Shown here: one piece after another, positions 41,302 through 48,309 of the stretch
How positions within the stretch are numbered: position 1 is the first letter of the stretch
Layout: each line of letters starts with the position of its first letter
DNA from: Olivibacter sp. SDN3
GTDB taxonomy: Bacteria > Bacteroidota > Bacteroidia > Sphingobacteriales > Sphingobacteriaceae
Assembly: GCF_014334135.1 (NCBI RefSeq)
Contig: NZ_CP060497.1
Location: 1,674,001 to 1,738,000 of the forward strand
Reading direction: 5' to 3'
DNA length: 64,000 nucleotides
Position numbers and translations under genes: made by a program
Notes under the pieces: generated by a model
The model's database searches: none
What the model was told of the DNA's origin: nothing
Seen by the model: only the letters and a program-made list of their open reading frames with translations

Positions 41302-41342
41302 AAAGATTGTATTTTTGTAGGCAACGACAAAAACTAAACAAT

Positions 41343-41795
41343 ATGTACACAGGACTTAAACATCTGCATTCGGGGCTACGTTATGTGGTACTCATATTAT
41401 TGATATTGGCAATTGTGACGGCTATAGGCGGGCTTCTAGGGAAAAAAAGCTATACCGAAGGTAATAGAAAACTCAATTTATTTACCTTAATAGCTACACA
41501 TGTACAACTGCTTGTTGGTCTCTTTTTATATGCTCTGAGTACCATGGTTACTTTCAATGATATGGGTACGGTTATGAGAACAGCTAACTTACGGTACTGG
41601 ACGGTAGAACATATCAGTATGATGGTGGTTGCAGTGATTTTAATTACCATAGGACATGCTAAATCGAAGAAAGGGACTACTGCTGTTGCTAAACACAAAT
41701 CTATAGCAATATTTTACACCATTGCTTTTGTAATTATTATGGCTGCAATTTTAATGGCTGTAAATAAAGGGTTTATAACATTTTGGGGTTTTTAA
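41343..41795 (+). CDS. Four-helix membrane protein (cytochrome b561-like length)
   Basis: 150 residues from the ATG giving MYTGLKHLHSGL; a longer frame upstream has no support. Four hydrophobic helices (about residues 11-30, 45-66, 79-99 and 118-140) and several histidines near the membrane (HLHSGLRY, ATHVQLL, VEHISMM) could bind haem as in small cytochrome-b proteins. A haem role is inference. It follows the receptor gene closely (41 bases) and may share its transcript. Confidence 0.7.
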   Translation: MYTGLKHLHSGLRYVVLILLILAIVTAIGGLLGKKSYTEGNRKLNLFTLIATHVQLLVGLFLYALSTMVTFNDMGTVMRTANLRYWTVEHISMMVVAVILITIGHAKSKKGTTAVAKHKSIAIFYTIAFVIIMAAILMAVNKGFITFWGF

Positions 41796-41859: not shown

Positions 41860-41890
41860 TTTGAAATGTTGAAATTTTATATTAGGTTTG
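41860..41890 (+). promoter_or_regulatory. Promoter of the trp leader and trpEGC operon
   Basis: TTTG at 41860-41863 and TAGGTTTG at 41883-41890 are spaced by 19 bases, an exact match to the Bacteroidota TTTG-N19-TAnnTTTG promoter. The predicted transcript start (about 41895-41898) falls at or just before the leader-peptide ATG at 41898. Confidence 0.8.
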
Positions 41891-41897
41891 CTTCATC

Positions 41898-41969
41898 ATG
41901 ACAGTCGAAACTAAAGATATACGTAACTGGTGGTGGCATGCAAAACGCAGCGCCGGGAGCATATATTAA
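41898..41969 (+). CDS. trpL: trp operon leader peptide (three tandem Trp codons)
   Basis: 23-codon frame: ATG, nine codons, then TGG TGG TGG at 41928-41936, ending with TAA at 41967-41969. Three adjacent Trp codons in so short a frame directly in front of trpE have no plausible meaning other than Trp-dependent ribosome stalling. By analogy with E. coli trpL, low charged tRNA-Trp stalls the ribosome on these codons and leaves the antiterminator segment free. There is little or no 5' leader, so translation may start on a near-leaderless mRNA. Confidence 0.88.
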   Translation: MTVETKDIRNWWWHAKRSAGSIY

Positions 41970-42030
41970 TGGCATAGATTGATCAACCATAGCCTAAAAG
42001 AACCCGACGCGTAATTCGTCGGGTTTTTTT
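41950..42030 (+). terminator. trp attenuator: antiterminator segment and intrinsic terminator
   Basis: The terminator stem is AACCCGACG (42001-42009) with CGTCGGGTT (42017-42025) and a T run to 42030. GCGCCGGG at 41950-41957, inside the leader frame 14 bases after the Trp codons, is complementary to CCCGACGC (42003-42010) with one C-A mismatch in eight. It is the competing segment: when it is free, the terminator arm is sequestered. A ribosome reaching the leader stop covers it, so the terminator forms. trpE begins 33 bases downstream. Confidence 0.85.
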
Positions 42031-42062
42031 GTGTGTATTGAATCGGATAAAATAAAATATAA

Positions 42063-43472
42063 ATGAATGTATATCAACTAAAGACAAGGTTTAAAAAACT
42101 ATTAGCAGATACCACAACTCCCGTAAGCATTTACTTGAGACTGCGGGATGTCTTCCCTAATAGCTTATTGTTGGAAAGCTCGGATTATCATAGTAAAGAG
42201 AACAGTATGAGTTATGTCTGTTGCGAACCGATGGCCGGCATAACATTAGATGAGAAGTCCTTAGAAATATATTATCCCGATGGCAAAAAGATAGCTAGGG
42301 CTGCAAATAGTATTAATCTACGAGAAGAGGTTTCTTTATTTCGTCAGTCTTTTAAGGTAGTAAATGAGCCGCCCTTTAAGTTCATTTCAAACGGATTATT
42401 TGGTTATTTTACATTTGATGCAGTCGCACACTTTGAAGATATTACGCTCCATACTCCGATAGATGACGTTCGAAATATCCCTTATTTGCAGTATCATATA
42501 TATCGATATGTAATCGCAATTGATCATTTTCGTAATGAGCTTTATATCTTTGAACATACCTATGGAACGCAACCAGACGATGGGTTGGACAAAATTCAAT
42601 ACCTCATACAAAACAAAAACTTTCCTGAGTATCGCTTTGAATTGAATGGCGACGAGACGTCTAATAAGACTGATGAAGAATATATGGCCTTAGTGGAAAA
42701 GACCAAAGAACATATATTTCGGGGAGATGTATTTCAAATTGTGCCATCCAGAGCTTTCAGTAGGCCATTTCTCGGTGACGAATTTAACGTATACCGCAGC
42801 CTAAGATCGGTGAACCCCTCTCCTTACCTCTTCTATTTTGACTATGGAGATTTTAAACTATTTGGCTCTTCGCCAGAAGCACAATTGACAATAAAAGATA
42901 AGGAAGCTTGCATTTATCCTATCGCGGGTACATTTAAGCGTACAGGGAGCATGACGGAGGATTTACAGATTGCAGAAAAATTGAAATCAGACCCAAAAGA
43001 AAGTGCCGAGCACGTGATGTTAGTAGATCTCGCTCGAAATGATCTGAGCAGACACTGTGTGGGTGTTGACGTTAAATCATTCAAAGAAGCGCAGTTTTAT
43101 TCGCACGTAATCCACTTGGTGTCTAAGGTTGCAGGCACGCTTCAGGAAGGGGTGAACTCATTCGATGTGGTTGGCGATACATTTCCTGCCGGTACACTTA
43201 GCGGAGCACCTAAACATATGGCCATGCAGCTCATTGACAGATACGAAAAACAACAGCGTGGCTTCTACAGCGGTGCGATAGGGTTTATGGGTTTTAACGG
43301 TGACTTCAATCATGCGATTATGATTCGGACTTTTCTGAGCAAAAAAAATAGATTGCACTATCAGGCAGGGGGGGGCGTCGTCGCAGATTCTTCTGCTGAA
43401 GGCGAATTGAATGAAGTTAATAATAAAATTGCAGCTTTGAGAAAGGCGTTAGCTTTAGCAGAAAGCATTTAG
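42063..43472 (+). CDS. trpE: Anthranilate synthase component I
   Basis: 469 residues. Converts chorismate to anthranilate with TrpG-supplied ammonia. The N-terminal regulatory motif LLLESSDY (about residue 33) is the LLES site for feedback inhibition by tryptophan. The chorismate-binding core shows FQIVPSRAFSR, FGSSPEAQL, YPIAGTFKRTG, EHVMLVDLARNDL, and GDTFPAGTLSGAPK. Control is thus double: attenuation and feedback. trpG follows after 44 bases. Confidence 0.97.
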   Translation: MNVYQLKTRFKKLLADTTTPVSIYLRLRDVFPNSLLLESSDYHSKENSMSYVCCEPMAGITLDEKSLEIYYPDGKKIARAANSINLREEVSLFRQSFKVVNEPPFKFISNGLFGYFTFDAVAHFEDITLHTPIDDVRNIPYLQYHIYRYVIAIDHFRNELYIFEHTYGTQPDDGLDKIQYLIQNKNFPEYRFELNGDETSNKTDEEYMALVEKTKEHIFRGDVFQIVPSRAFSRPFLGDEFNVYRSLRSVNPSPYLFYFDYGDFKLFGSSPEAQLTIKDKEACIYPIAGTFKRTGSMTEDLQIAEKLKSDPKESAEHVMLVDLARNDLSRHCVGVDVKSFKEAQFYSHVIHLVSKVAGTLQEGVNSFDVVGDTFPAGTLSGAPKHMAMQLIDRYEKQQRGFYSGAIGFMGFNGDFNHAIMIRTFLSKKNRLHYQAGGGVVADSSAEGELNEVNNKIAALRKALALAESI

Positions 43473-43516: not shown

Positions 43517-44110
43517 ATGATACACAACGAACTTGCTACCGAACCAAAGATTTTGGTGGTAGATAATTATGATTCATTTACCTTTAACCTGGTACATCTC
43601 CTACAGGAATGTGGAATGGATTGTACCGTAATAAGGAATGATAAATTTAACATTGAAGACGTGGCTGCTTATGATAAGATTCTTTTATCACCTGGACCGG
43701 GAATTCCGGAAGAATCCGGCTTATTATTAGAGGTCATTCGGGTATATGGCACCTCAAAAAGTATTCTAGGTATTTGTTTGGGGCAACAGGCAATAGCAGA
43801 AGTGTATGGAGGCAAATTGTTTAACCTCAAGAGACCTGTGCACGGCACGGCCACACCTTTAAAAGTGATTGATGAGGAAGAACCGTTATTCTCTGGACTA
43901 CCAACATCTTTTATGGTTGGTCGTTATCATTCTTGGGCAGTAGACAGAGAAGGGTTTCCTAGCGAGTTGGAAATAACTGCATTGGACGAGGAAGGGGTTA
44001 TCATGGCGCTCAGGCATAAAACGTATGATGTAAAAGGGCTACAGTTTCATCCAGAGTCTGTATTAAGTGTACATGGAAAAAAAATCATTGAGAATTGGTT
44101 GAAACGTTGA
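43517..44110 (+). CDS. trpG: Anthranilate/aminodeoxychorismate synthase component II
   Basis: 197 residues, class I glutamine amidotransferase. Catalytic triad: Cys in LGICLGQQAIAE, His and Glu in LQFHPESVLS near the C-terminus; oxyanion-loop SPGPGIPEESG. It releases ammonia for TrpE. In genomes with one such subunit it also serves PabB, so it may be shared with folate synthesis (family knowledge). trpC starts 51 bases downstream. Confidence 0.95.
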   Translation: MIHNELATEPKILVVDNYDSFTFNLVHLLQECGMDCTVIRNDKFNIEDVAAYDKILLSPGPGIPEESGLLLEVIRVYGTSKSILGICLGQQAIAEVYGGKLFNLKRPVHGTATPLKVIDEEEPLFSGLPTSFMVGRYHSWAVDREGFPSELEITALDEEGVIMALRHKTYDVKGLQFHPESVLSVHGKKIIENWLKR

Positions 44111-44161: not shown

Positions 44162-44950
44162 ATGGATATCTTAGATAAAATTATAGAAAGAAAAAAGCGA
44201 GAGGTAGCTGAAGCAAAGGAAAAAGTTAGTTTAGAAGAACTAAAAAACACACCACTTTATGGCCGAACCTGTTATAGGCTGCGTGATTTTGTGTTAGACA
44301 ATGCGCGAACAGGGGTGATAGCTGAATTTAAAAGGGCATCTCCTTCAAAAGGTATTATTAATGATAGCGTAGAGCTGAACGAAGTGGTAAAAAGTTACGC
44401 AATTTCCGGAGCCTCGGCTATTTCGGTACTGACCGATTCTTTCTTTTTTAAGGGATCATTGGATGATTTAAAGGAGGCTAGATCACAAGTAGATATTCCT
44501 CTATTGAGAAAAGACTTTGTGCTAGATGTTTATCAAATTGAAGAGGCAAAGGCTTATGGCGCAGATATTATTTTGCTCATAGCAGCAGTGCTGTCAAAAG
44601 AGGATGTAGGACGATTCTCAAAATATGCAAAGGCATTAGGCTTAAATGTACTGCTTGAAATACATAACGAAGAAGAGCTTGTAGGAAACACCTATGCCGA
44701 AATAGACGCAATAGGCGTTAATAATAGAAATCTGAAAGATTTTTCTGTTTCCATCCAGCACTCTCTGGATCTGGTGGATAAAATTCCCGACCAATATATC
44801 AAAGTGTCGGAGAGTGGTATAAGCGATCCTGGTACAATTAGAAAGTTAAAACACGCTGGTTTTCAAGCATTCCTTATTGGTGAAAATTTTATGAAAACGG
44901 AAGATCCTTCCGCTGCGGTTATAAATTTTACAAAGGAGCTACGAAAATAG
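44162..44950 (+). CDS. trpC: Indole-3-glycerol-phosphate synthase
   Basis: 262 residues, single-function TIM barrel closing the indole ring of CdRP. Seen: IAEFKRASPSKG (catalytic Lys), LLRKDFVLDVYQIEEA (catalytic Lys and Asp), IGVNNRNLKDF (Asn for the anthranilate ring) and VSESGISD. No fused TrpF domain. The next gene (anmK) runs the other way 9 bases on, so trpD, trpF, trpB and trpA are not in this operon; between trpG and trpC, where trpD normally sits, there are only 51 bases. Confidence 0.96.
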   Translation: MDILDKIIERKKREVAEAKEKVSLEELKNTPLYGRTCYRLRDFVLDNARTGVIAEFKRASPSKGIINDSVELNEVVKSYAISGASAISVLTDSFFFKGSLDDLKEARSQVDIPLLRKDFVLDVYQIEEAKAYGADIILLIAAVLSKEDVGRFSKYAKALGLNVLLEIHNEEELVGNTYAEIDAIGVNNRNLKDFSVSIQHSLDLVDKIPDQYIKVSESGISDPGTIRKLKHAGFQAFLIGENFMKTEDPSAAVINFTKELRK

Positions 44951-46299: not shown

Positions 46300-48222
46300 A
46301 TGGCTAGATTAAATCTATTGGAAGAAACGCGTTTCGAGAAACTTCCCGTGAGCGTCTACAAAAATTCTAGAGAGGCATCATTATCAGTTGCTGCCCGTAT
46401 CGCAACATTAATTAAAGAAAAGCAAGCAAAAGGTGAGCAGGCTGTAATAGGTCTTGCTACAGGAGCAACTCCTGTTCAAGTGTATGCTGAGCTTGTACGT
46501 CTTCATCGTGAAGAAGGATTGAGCTTTAAAGATGTCATCACATTCAATTTGGATGAGTATTATCCTATGCAGCCGGACGCTGTGCAGAGTTATGTCACCT
46601 TTATGAATAAGCACTTGTTTGATCATATTGACATCGACAAAGCAAATGTACACATCCCGGATGGGACGCTGGATTTGGCAGATATCCCGGCTTATTGTGT
46701 AGAGTATGAGCGTAAAATTACGGCGTTGGGAGGGCTGGATTTTCAGCTCTTAGGTATTGGCCGTACCGGACATATCGGTTTTAATGAACCGGGATCTGCG
46801 CCTAACTCAGGAACACGATTGGTGACCTTAGATGATCTCACGCGCCGTGACGCGTCTCGCGACTTTGGAGGAAAGGAAAATGTGCCTACTAAGGCGATCA
46901 CCATGGGTATTGGAACCATTTTCAAAGCGAGGGAGATTATATTGATGGCTTGGAATCCTGTAAAAGCAGAAATTGTTAAAAAAGCGGTTGAAGGCGAAAT
47001 TTCGTCCGATGTACCTGCAACTTATTTACAGCTTTCAGACCACGTAGAATTTATTTTGGATGAGGGGGCTGCGAGCGAACTTACACGATTTAATACGCCC
47101 TGGTTGGTGACGGATTGTGTTTGGGATTCGCAAACAATAAAAAAGGCTGTGATCTGGTTAGCAGAGGCGGTTGACAAACCGATATTGAAATTAACCGAAG
47201 AAGATTATAATAACCATGGCATGGCTCAATTAGCAACAGAAAAAGGGCCTGTATATAATATCAACATAGATATTTTTAATCAGCTACAACATACCATTAC
47301 CGGATGGCCTGGCGGTAAACCGAATGCAGATGATAGTCAACGCCCGGAGCGAGCAGTGCCAGCGAAGAAAAATGTTATTATATTTTCTCCACATCCAGAT
47401 GATGACGTAATTTCCATGGGTGGGACATTTATTCGGCTGGCAGATCAGGGGCATAACGTACATGTTGCTTATCAAACTTCGGGGAATACTGCCGTATGGG
47501 ATGATGATGTGCTGAGGTATCTTGAGTTTGCTACGGATTTTATAAAATCTTTGGATGTAGAAACCAGCAAATTGGATGCCCTGTATGCTGATACCAGAAA
47601 GTTTATTGCTGCTAAAAAGCCTAATCAGATAGATACTGAAGAAATCAGGACTGTAAAGGGACTCATTCGCAAAGGGGAGGCGATTGCGGGTGCGCGTTTT
47701 GCCGGGCTTCCAGACGAGCATATACATTTTCAGAATCTTCCTTTTTATGACAGAGGTAAATTTTCCAAAGAAGTTTCCTATGAAGATGATGTTCAGCAAA
47801 CCATGGAGTTGTTACGGAAGGTGAAACCGCATCAGGTATTTGCGGCCGGTGATTTTGCCGATCCTCATGGAACACATAAAGTGTGCTTTGACATTATTTT
47901 AGAAGCGCTTGTGAGGCTGCGACAAACAGATGAATGGACGAAGGATTGCTGGTTATGGTTATATAGAGGTGCTTGGCATGAGTTTGAAATTCATGAAATT
48001 GAAATGGCCGTTCCGCTATCTCCTCAAGAGGTAATTCGAAAAAGACATGCAATATTTAAGCATCAGTCTCAGAAAGACTTACCGGTATTCCCTGGAGATG
48101 ACGCTCGCGAATTTTGGGTTCGTGCAGAAGATAGAACGAGTGAAACGGCTAGAAAATACGATGCTCTGGGACTAGCGGATTACGAAGCAATCGAGGCGTT
48201 TATCAGGTGGAAATTGGATTAA
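46300..48222 (+). CDS. nagB: Glucosamine-6-phosphate deaminase fused to a PIG-L/LmbE domain
   Basis: 640 residues from the ATG giving MARLNLLEETRF. The first 270 or so are NagB: AVIGLATGATPVQVY, FNLDEYYPM (catalytic Asp), GRTGHIGFNEPGSAPNS (catalytic His-Glu). After a linker with a NagB-like swivel (residues 270-350), the LmbE-type deacetylase domain follows: IIFSPHPDDDVISMGGT (zinc-binding HPDD) and DPHGTHKVCF. The long form occurs in other Bacteroidota (family knowledge). It could both remove an acetyl group and deaminate, but a metal-dependent deacetylase activity is inference. A -7-like box TATTTTTG is at 46262-46269. Confidence 0.93.
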   Translation: MARLNLLEETRFEKLPVSVYKNSREASLSVAARIATLIKEKQAKGEQAVIGLATGATPVQVYAELVRLHREEGLSFKDVITFNLDEYYPMQPDAVQSYVTFMNKHLFDHIDIDKANVHIPDGTLDLADIPAYCVEYERKITALGGLDFQLLGIGRTGHIGFNEPGSAPNSGTRLVTLDDLTRRDASRDFGGKENVPTKAITMGIGTIFKAREIILMAWNPVKAEIVKKAVEGEISSDVPATYLQLSDHVEFILDEGAASELTRFNTPWLVTDCVWDSQTIKKAVIWLAEAVDKPILKLTEEDYNNHGMAQLATEKGPVYNINIDIFNQLQHTITGWPGGKPNADDSQRPERAVPAKKNVIIFSPHPDDDVISMGGTFIRLADQGHNVHVAYQTSGNTAVWDDDVLRYLEFATDFIKSLDVETSKLDALYADTRKFIAAKKPNQIDTEEIRTVKGLIRKGEAIAGARFAGLPDEHIHFQNLPFYDRGKFSKEVSYEDDVQQTMELLRKVKPHQVFAAGDFADPHGTHKVCFDIILEALVRLRQTDEWTKDCWLWLYRGAWHEFEIHEIEMAVPLSPQEVIRKRHAIFKHQSQKDLPVFPGDDAREFWVRAEDRTSETARKYDALGLADYEAIEAFIRWKLD

Positions 48223-48270: not shown

Positions 48271-48309
48271 AAAGGGTCTGCAAAAAACTTAAATTTTTGC
48301 AGACCCTTT
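48271..48309 (+). terminator. nagB terminator, 16-bp perfect stem
   Basis: AAAGGGTCTGCAAAAA (48271-48286) and its complement (48294-48309) enclose the 7-base loop ACTTAAA, with T-rich sequence after it. Strong intrinsic terminator 49 bases after the nagB stop. Confidence 0.9.

Follow-up and report, generated by a model that had tools for sequence, protein, structure and literature searches.

A probable ribosome-mediated tryptophan attenuator upstream of trpE in Olivibacter sp. SDN3 and related Sphingobacteriales

We describe a region upstream of trpE in Olivibacter sp. SDN3 (positions 41883-42030 of the window, by which we mean the whole stretch of 64,000 nucleotides that was analyzed) which we regard, with a probability of roughly 0.93, as a tryptophan-responsive transcription attenuator of the classical, ribosome-mediated kind (Table 1). 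An attenuator of this kind upstream of trpE in a member of the Bacteroidota had been proposed in an earlier sequence-only reading, and the proposal is supported by conservation, co-variation, an arm-swapping test and folding in three ribosome states. The parts were found where that reading had placed them, namely the 23-codon leader frame with TGG TGG TGG at 41928-41936, the segment GCGCCGGG (41950-41957), which is complementary in seven of eight positions to CCCGACGC (42003-42010), and the 9-bp terminator with its T-run (42001-42030). The trpE start codon (ATG at 42063) had likewise been correctly located 33 bases past the terminator and T-run, and the identity of the gene is given by its Pfam matches. 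Two features had been missed: a promoter directly before the leader ATG and a second attenuator on trpDFBA.

Table 1. Parts of the tryptophan leader region upstream of trpE, the genes that follow it and the second leader upstream of trpD.
Feature	Coordinates	Strand	Basis or remark
Probable -33 element TTTG	41860..41863	+	19 nt 5' of the -7 box; fits the Bacteroidetes consensus TTTG/TAnnTTTG (PMC6847099, PMC7366714)
-7 promoter box TAGGTTTG	41883..41890	+	Predicted transcription start ~41895-41896
trp leader peptide ORF MTVETKDIRNWWWHAKRSAGSIY, 23 codons, 3 Trp	41898..41969	+	Sequence; conserved in 80/80 relatives
Control codons TGG TGG TGG (TGGTGGTGG)	41928..41936	+	Sequence; columns near-invariant in alignment A1
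Segment 1 (CUGGUG)	41927..41932	+	Folding: partner 41951-41956 in ribosome-free RNA
Segment 2, antiterminator arm GCGCCGGG, within the leader ORF	41950..41957	+	9 nt 5' of the stop codon; duplex and swap tests
Segment 3, terminator 5' arm AACCCGACG	42001..42009	+	Antiterminator partner CCCGACGC 42003-42010; terminator co-variation
Segment 4, terminator 3' arm CGTCGGGTT	42017..42025	+	Terminator pattern scan and co-variation
T-run, predicted premature termination site	42024..42030	+	Sequence
trpE, anthranilate synthase component I	42063..43472	+	Pfam PF00425 6.4e-80, PF04715 1.9e-25
trpG, anthranilate synthase glutamine amidotransferase	43517..44110	+	Pfam PF00117 4.4e-49
trpC, indole-3-glycerol phosphate synthase; final gene in the trpE half of the split pathway	44162..44950	+	Pfam PF00218 3.8e-79
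Second Trp leader MEIRVAYQSWWWHKE before trpD	Start codon G000:C1 4638844 (region ~4638720-4638850; L162)	-	WWW leader

Comparative conservation is the decisive evidence that the attenuator is real. Among 80 fetched Sphingobacteriales trpE loci, which were anchored on the protein, a leader with at least two Trp codons was present in every case, ~150-340 nt upstream of trpE; conservation of the Trp codons was one of the checks that the earlier reading had suggested. The leaders carry WW or WWW in 76 of these relatives, and the other four, all Pedobacter, have TGG CTT TGG (Trp-Leu-Trp). Outside the Trp run, the leader peptide shows little conservation from genus to genus. A CCCGACG..CGTCGGG-type terminator can be found behind the leader in nearly all 80 loci, and its stem co-varies: 98% of cells are paired (23-48% in slid controls), 36 cells are changed on both sides compared with 11.6 in shuffles, and compensatory changes occur in five of the nine pairs. 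Each of the 29 trpE loci sampled in other families of class Bacteroidia has a Trp leader followed by a terminator, as do three of five sampled in other classes (L141, L143, L144); WWW leaders occur in the other Bacteroidia families.

This pattern bears on an alternative explanation, in which the hairpin serves as a plain terminator for the gene upstream (41307-41795) and the Trp-containing ORF arose by chance. That gene has the same orientation and stops 200 nt short of the hairpin, and a pattern scan of 14 kb yielded about as many terminator-like sites as shuffled sequence did (13 versus 11), so the hairpin pattern alone is weak evidence. However, a promoter separates this gene from the hairpin, and the Trp leader, promoter and terminator are conserved jointly in 80/80 relatives as well as in other families. 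We consider the plain-terminator explanation highly improbable, and the conservation of the TGG codons refutes it in practice. The upstream gene itself encodes a small predicted membrane protein with a weak DUF996 match below cut-off. The longest terminator-like stem in the scanned 14 kb belongs to a strong inverted repeat at 48271-48309, with a 16-bp stem and a T-rich tail, 3' of a gene ending at 48222.

Tryptophan could also be sensed without a ribosome, through a T-box, a TRAP-like protein site or a Trp riboswitch, and it is general knowledge that such elements too place a terminator before trp genes. At gathering score, however, Rfam returned only tRNA and no leader family for the whole window, inspection of 41895-42000 showed no series of (G/U)AG repeats, and conservation falls on in-frame UGG codons and on segments whose position is phased to the ORF. 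The T-box and TRAP readings were rejected on these grounds, and ribosome-free sensing in general strikes us as scarcely credible.

None of 200 dinucleotide shuffles folds as well as the 141-nt leader (z -4.4). Folding with blocked segments had been recommended in the sequence-only reading, and we folded the leader in the form it has until segment 4 is transcribed, placing a ribosome footprint at different positions. Within this footprint model, the probability of the antiterminator helix between segments 2 and 3 in the window is ~0.85 when the ribosome is stalled at the first, second or third Trp codon and 0.00 when it is at the stop codon. It is also 0.00 with no ribosome, because segment 1, which consists of the Trp codons themselves, holds segment 2. 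Over 78 loci, the median probabilities are 0.85 (stalled), 0.003 (at stop) and 0.34 (free). The stalled and stop states differ by more than 0.1 in 65 loci, and the 13 with little difference mostly have a stop codon far past segment 2. When the spacer was shuffled, the stalled probability was 0.36 versus 0.81 for the loci's own spacers, which gave the higher value in 78/78. Once segment 4 is included, equilibrium folding always favours the terminator, so the modelled switch would have to be kinetic, decided during transcription, as in E. coli.

The antiterminator duplex of the window has a predicted energy of -12.7 kcal/mol, compared with -6.5 in shuffles (p 0.01). We also used an alignment-independent swap test, in which the stretch after the Trp codons was matched to its own terminator arm or to those of other species; over 57 loci, the own arm gave a mean of -11.88 kcal/mol and swapped arms -10.53 +/- 0.26 kcal/mol (0/2000 permutations). 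In almost every locus, the best antiterminator site follows the final Trp codon at a distance of 12-19 nt. One trpE locus (L054) showed no convincing antiterminator in these tests, and the automatic choice of terminator arm failed in three (L039, L046, L072). By alignment columns, 75.9% of the cells in this helix are paired versus 28-42% when slid, with a co-variation score slightly above shuffles, a weakness that is partly due to register shifts between genera. The covarying arms that the earlier reading had asked to be compared were confirmed for the terminator by compensatory changes; those of the antiterminator were recovered by the species-own swap test and came out weakly by columns.

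That reading had seen no strong pause hairpin between segments 1 and 2 and had taken the arrangement to be simpler than that of E. coli. Both statements need correction, since the free leader pairs 41927-41932 with 41951-41956 plus 2 bp on folding, and the three-way logic is complete. In the trpE relatives this hairpin is variable, as the median free-RNA probability given above reflects. A fixed-column CCCGA/UCGGG hairpin common to all genera was tried and found little support, because segment 1 corresponds to the Trp codons in Olivibacter and to the codons after them in Sphingobacterium. In Sphingobacterium and its relatives (L020-L060), the region linking segment 2 to the terminator contains a strongly conserved stretch, AATCAACCAAAACC. 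Its counterpart in the window is GATCAACCATAGCC (41981-41994), which possibly pairs with UUGGU just 3' of segment 2.

From these parts and their folding, we infer the start of transcription, translation of the leader, termination and its dependence on tryptophan as follows. RNA polymerase would start at ~41895, and a ribosome would begin the leader ORF almost at the RNA 5' end. When charged tRNA-Trp is scarce, the ribosome would stall on UGG UGG UGG and enclose segment 1. Segment 2, left exposed, would pair with segment 3 (42003-42010) while segment 4 is still untranscribed, allowing read-through into trpE-G-C. When charged tRNA-Trp is plentiful, the ribosome would reach the stop codon and cover segment 2 or, alternatively, segment 1 would pair with segment 2 after ribosome release. 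In either case segment 3 would be free for segment 4, and transcription would end at ~42030.

In 75 of the 81 Sphingobacteriales loci, the gap between the end of a TAnnTTTG box and the leader start codon is 3-10 nt (mode 7), compared with 1.7% of random upstream positions. Transcription in F. johnsoniae starts 4-5 nt past the G of the -7 box (PMC6847099), and the box position combined with this spacing would put the start 0-6 nt before the AUG, at ~41895 in the window. The leader mRNA is probably leaderless or nearly so, with a predicted 5' UTR of 2-3 nt in the window. Leaderless mRNAs are a small minority in the phylum (3.7-5.5%, two species mapped): they are put at 5.5% in the mapped species of one report (PMC9723704), and ~3.7% of mRNAs have a 5' UTR under 10 nt in another (PMC7366714). 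If the leader ORFs do begin almost at the RNA 5' end, sensing would rest on initiation at a 5'-terminal AUG.

Alternatively, the leader may be translated from a longer 5' UTR, with the TAnnTTTG box acting as a secondary promoter. The box lies ~24-28 nt before the ATG in most sampled Flavobacteriaceae, which corresponds to a ~13-nt UTR, and a leaderless start is therefore not required for the mechanism; the window box is also atypical in its GG at -10/-9, where G almost never occurs in F. johnsoniae (PMC6847099). Against a longer UTR stand the box-to-ATG gap across the Sphingobacteriales loci and, in the window, the -33 TTTG at the right spacing. We regard the longer UTR as unlikely, while allowing it a modest chance.

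The Olivibacter genome is a single 6.12-Mb contig, and the nearest named match of the TrpE encoded in the window is from O. domesticus (85%). Four further genes, trpD, trpF, trpB and trpA (the last two named from sequence and order), lie together 2.9 Mb from trpE. The genes trpG and trpC follow trpE in 76 of the 78 relatives that gave matches, which indicates that the pathway split is general in Sphingobacteriales. The leader before trpD (Table 1) is followed by a terminator, AAAAGGCTTGC/GCAAGCCTTTT, with the complementary segment TTATGGCAA, and the footprint model gives antiterminator probabilities of 0.69 (stalled), 0.00 (at stop) and 0.06 (free). A Trp leader before trpD was found in 28 of 29 relatives, the remaining locus (L164) being shorter and probably cut by its contig. 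Among the relatives' loci the trpD terminator co-varies well, and the hairpin between segments 1 and 2 has 24 cells changed on both sides versus 10.8 (0/500 shuffles). The core of the trpD antiterminator is 90% paired and near-invariant, and its co-variation is not above shuffles. With a second attenuator of the same logic on trpD-F-B-A, both halves of the split pathway would answer to the same signal. We lean towards a general model for Sphingobacteriales in which two Trp attenuators (trpEGC and trpDFBA) run the whole split pathway from leader ORFs near the RNA 5' end, with initiation at a 5'-terminal AUG lacking a Shine-Dalgarno sequence. The -7 box of the trpD leaders is mostly CATATTTG (L163-L192), ~8-13 nt before the ATG, with a conserved C for the first T of TAnnTTTG, which perhaps marks a weaker or differently read promoter.

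Whether the terminated leader RNA or its peptide also acts in trans is raised by Sinorhizobium meliloti rnTrpL/peTrpL (PMC7298713), where the trp operons are likewise split and the leader starts at its ATG; the RNA released in Olivibacter would be ~135 nt. The poor conservation of the peptide outside the Trp run speaks against this possibility, and trans action is not needed since the second operon has its own attenuator. Such action appears improbable.

In the trpL attenuator of E. coli and other Enterobacteria (Yanofsky), segment 2 comes after the leader stop codon. The Olivibacter element resembles trpL, as generally known, in its leader ORF with tandem Trp codons, its alternative 1:2, 2:3 and 3:4 hairpins, the location of Trp codons within segment 1 and a T-run terminator before trpE. 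It differs from E. coli in the position of segment 2, which forms part of the leader ORF and precedes the stop codon, and in its near-zero predicted 5' UTR, its promoter type and the distribution of its trp genes over two operons.

Outside the Enterobacteria, the S. meliloti trpLE(G) leader shares split trp operons and a leaderless trp leader (predicted in Olivibacter); its trpE(G) attenuator RNA, however, acts in trans on trpDC, whereas Olivibacter trpD has its own attenuator (PMC7298713). Streptomyces lividans trpL1 (MFAHSTRNWWWTAHPAAH) is also a leaderless WWW leader before trpE, the leaderless state again being predicted in Olivibacter, and differs in its actinobacterial promoter and monocistronic trpE; an RNWWW stretch is identical in trpL1 and the window, most likely by chance (PMC8079986). 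Within the phylum, leader-peptide attenuators before amino-acid operons have been predicted in Flavobacterium psychrophilum from a transcription start site map and structure (PMC9723704). These share the proposed mechanism and belong to a different family, and the main text of that report names the pheA and hisG elements and not trp (PMC9723704). In most sampled Flavobacteriaceae trpE leaders, the predicted antiterminator target is the terminator loop and 3' arm, compared with the 5' arm in Sphingobacteriales. The arm GTCGTGA overlaps the TGA stop in leaders of the Flavobacteriaceae type (L112-L128, family f4), and its complement TCACGAC lies in the terminator loop and 3' arm.

The Pfam family Trp_leader1 (PF08055) scored 17.2 bits against a cut-off of 25 on the window leader, over residues 7-15 only, and we do not count the leader as a member; the same model had no match in four other Bacteroidota leaders. 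None of the Pfam and NCBIfam leader models scored above cut-off for these leaders. As no curated RNA or peptide family covers them, annotation pipelines likely miss such leaders. Our literature search found no description of trp attenuation in Bacteroidota; the survey of Lopatovskaya et al. (2010) may cover it, and priority is uncertain.

In conclusion, the element upstream of trpE is a well-supported trp attenuator of the classical type with a mildly unusual layout, in a phylum where amino-acid leader-peptide attenuation had already been predicted for Flavobacterium. On comparative evidence, our findings extend the range of the textbook trp attenuator to a phylum in which Shine-Dalgarno sequences are lacking and promoters are of a type of their own; the switch is carried by both halves of a split pathway. 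They also provide defined leaders for studying transcription-translation coupling and initiation at 5'-terminal AUGs in Bacteroidota.
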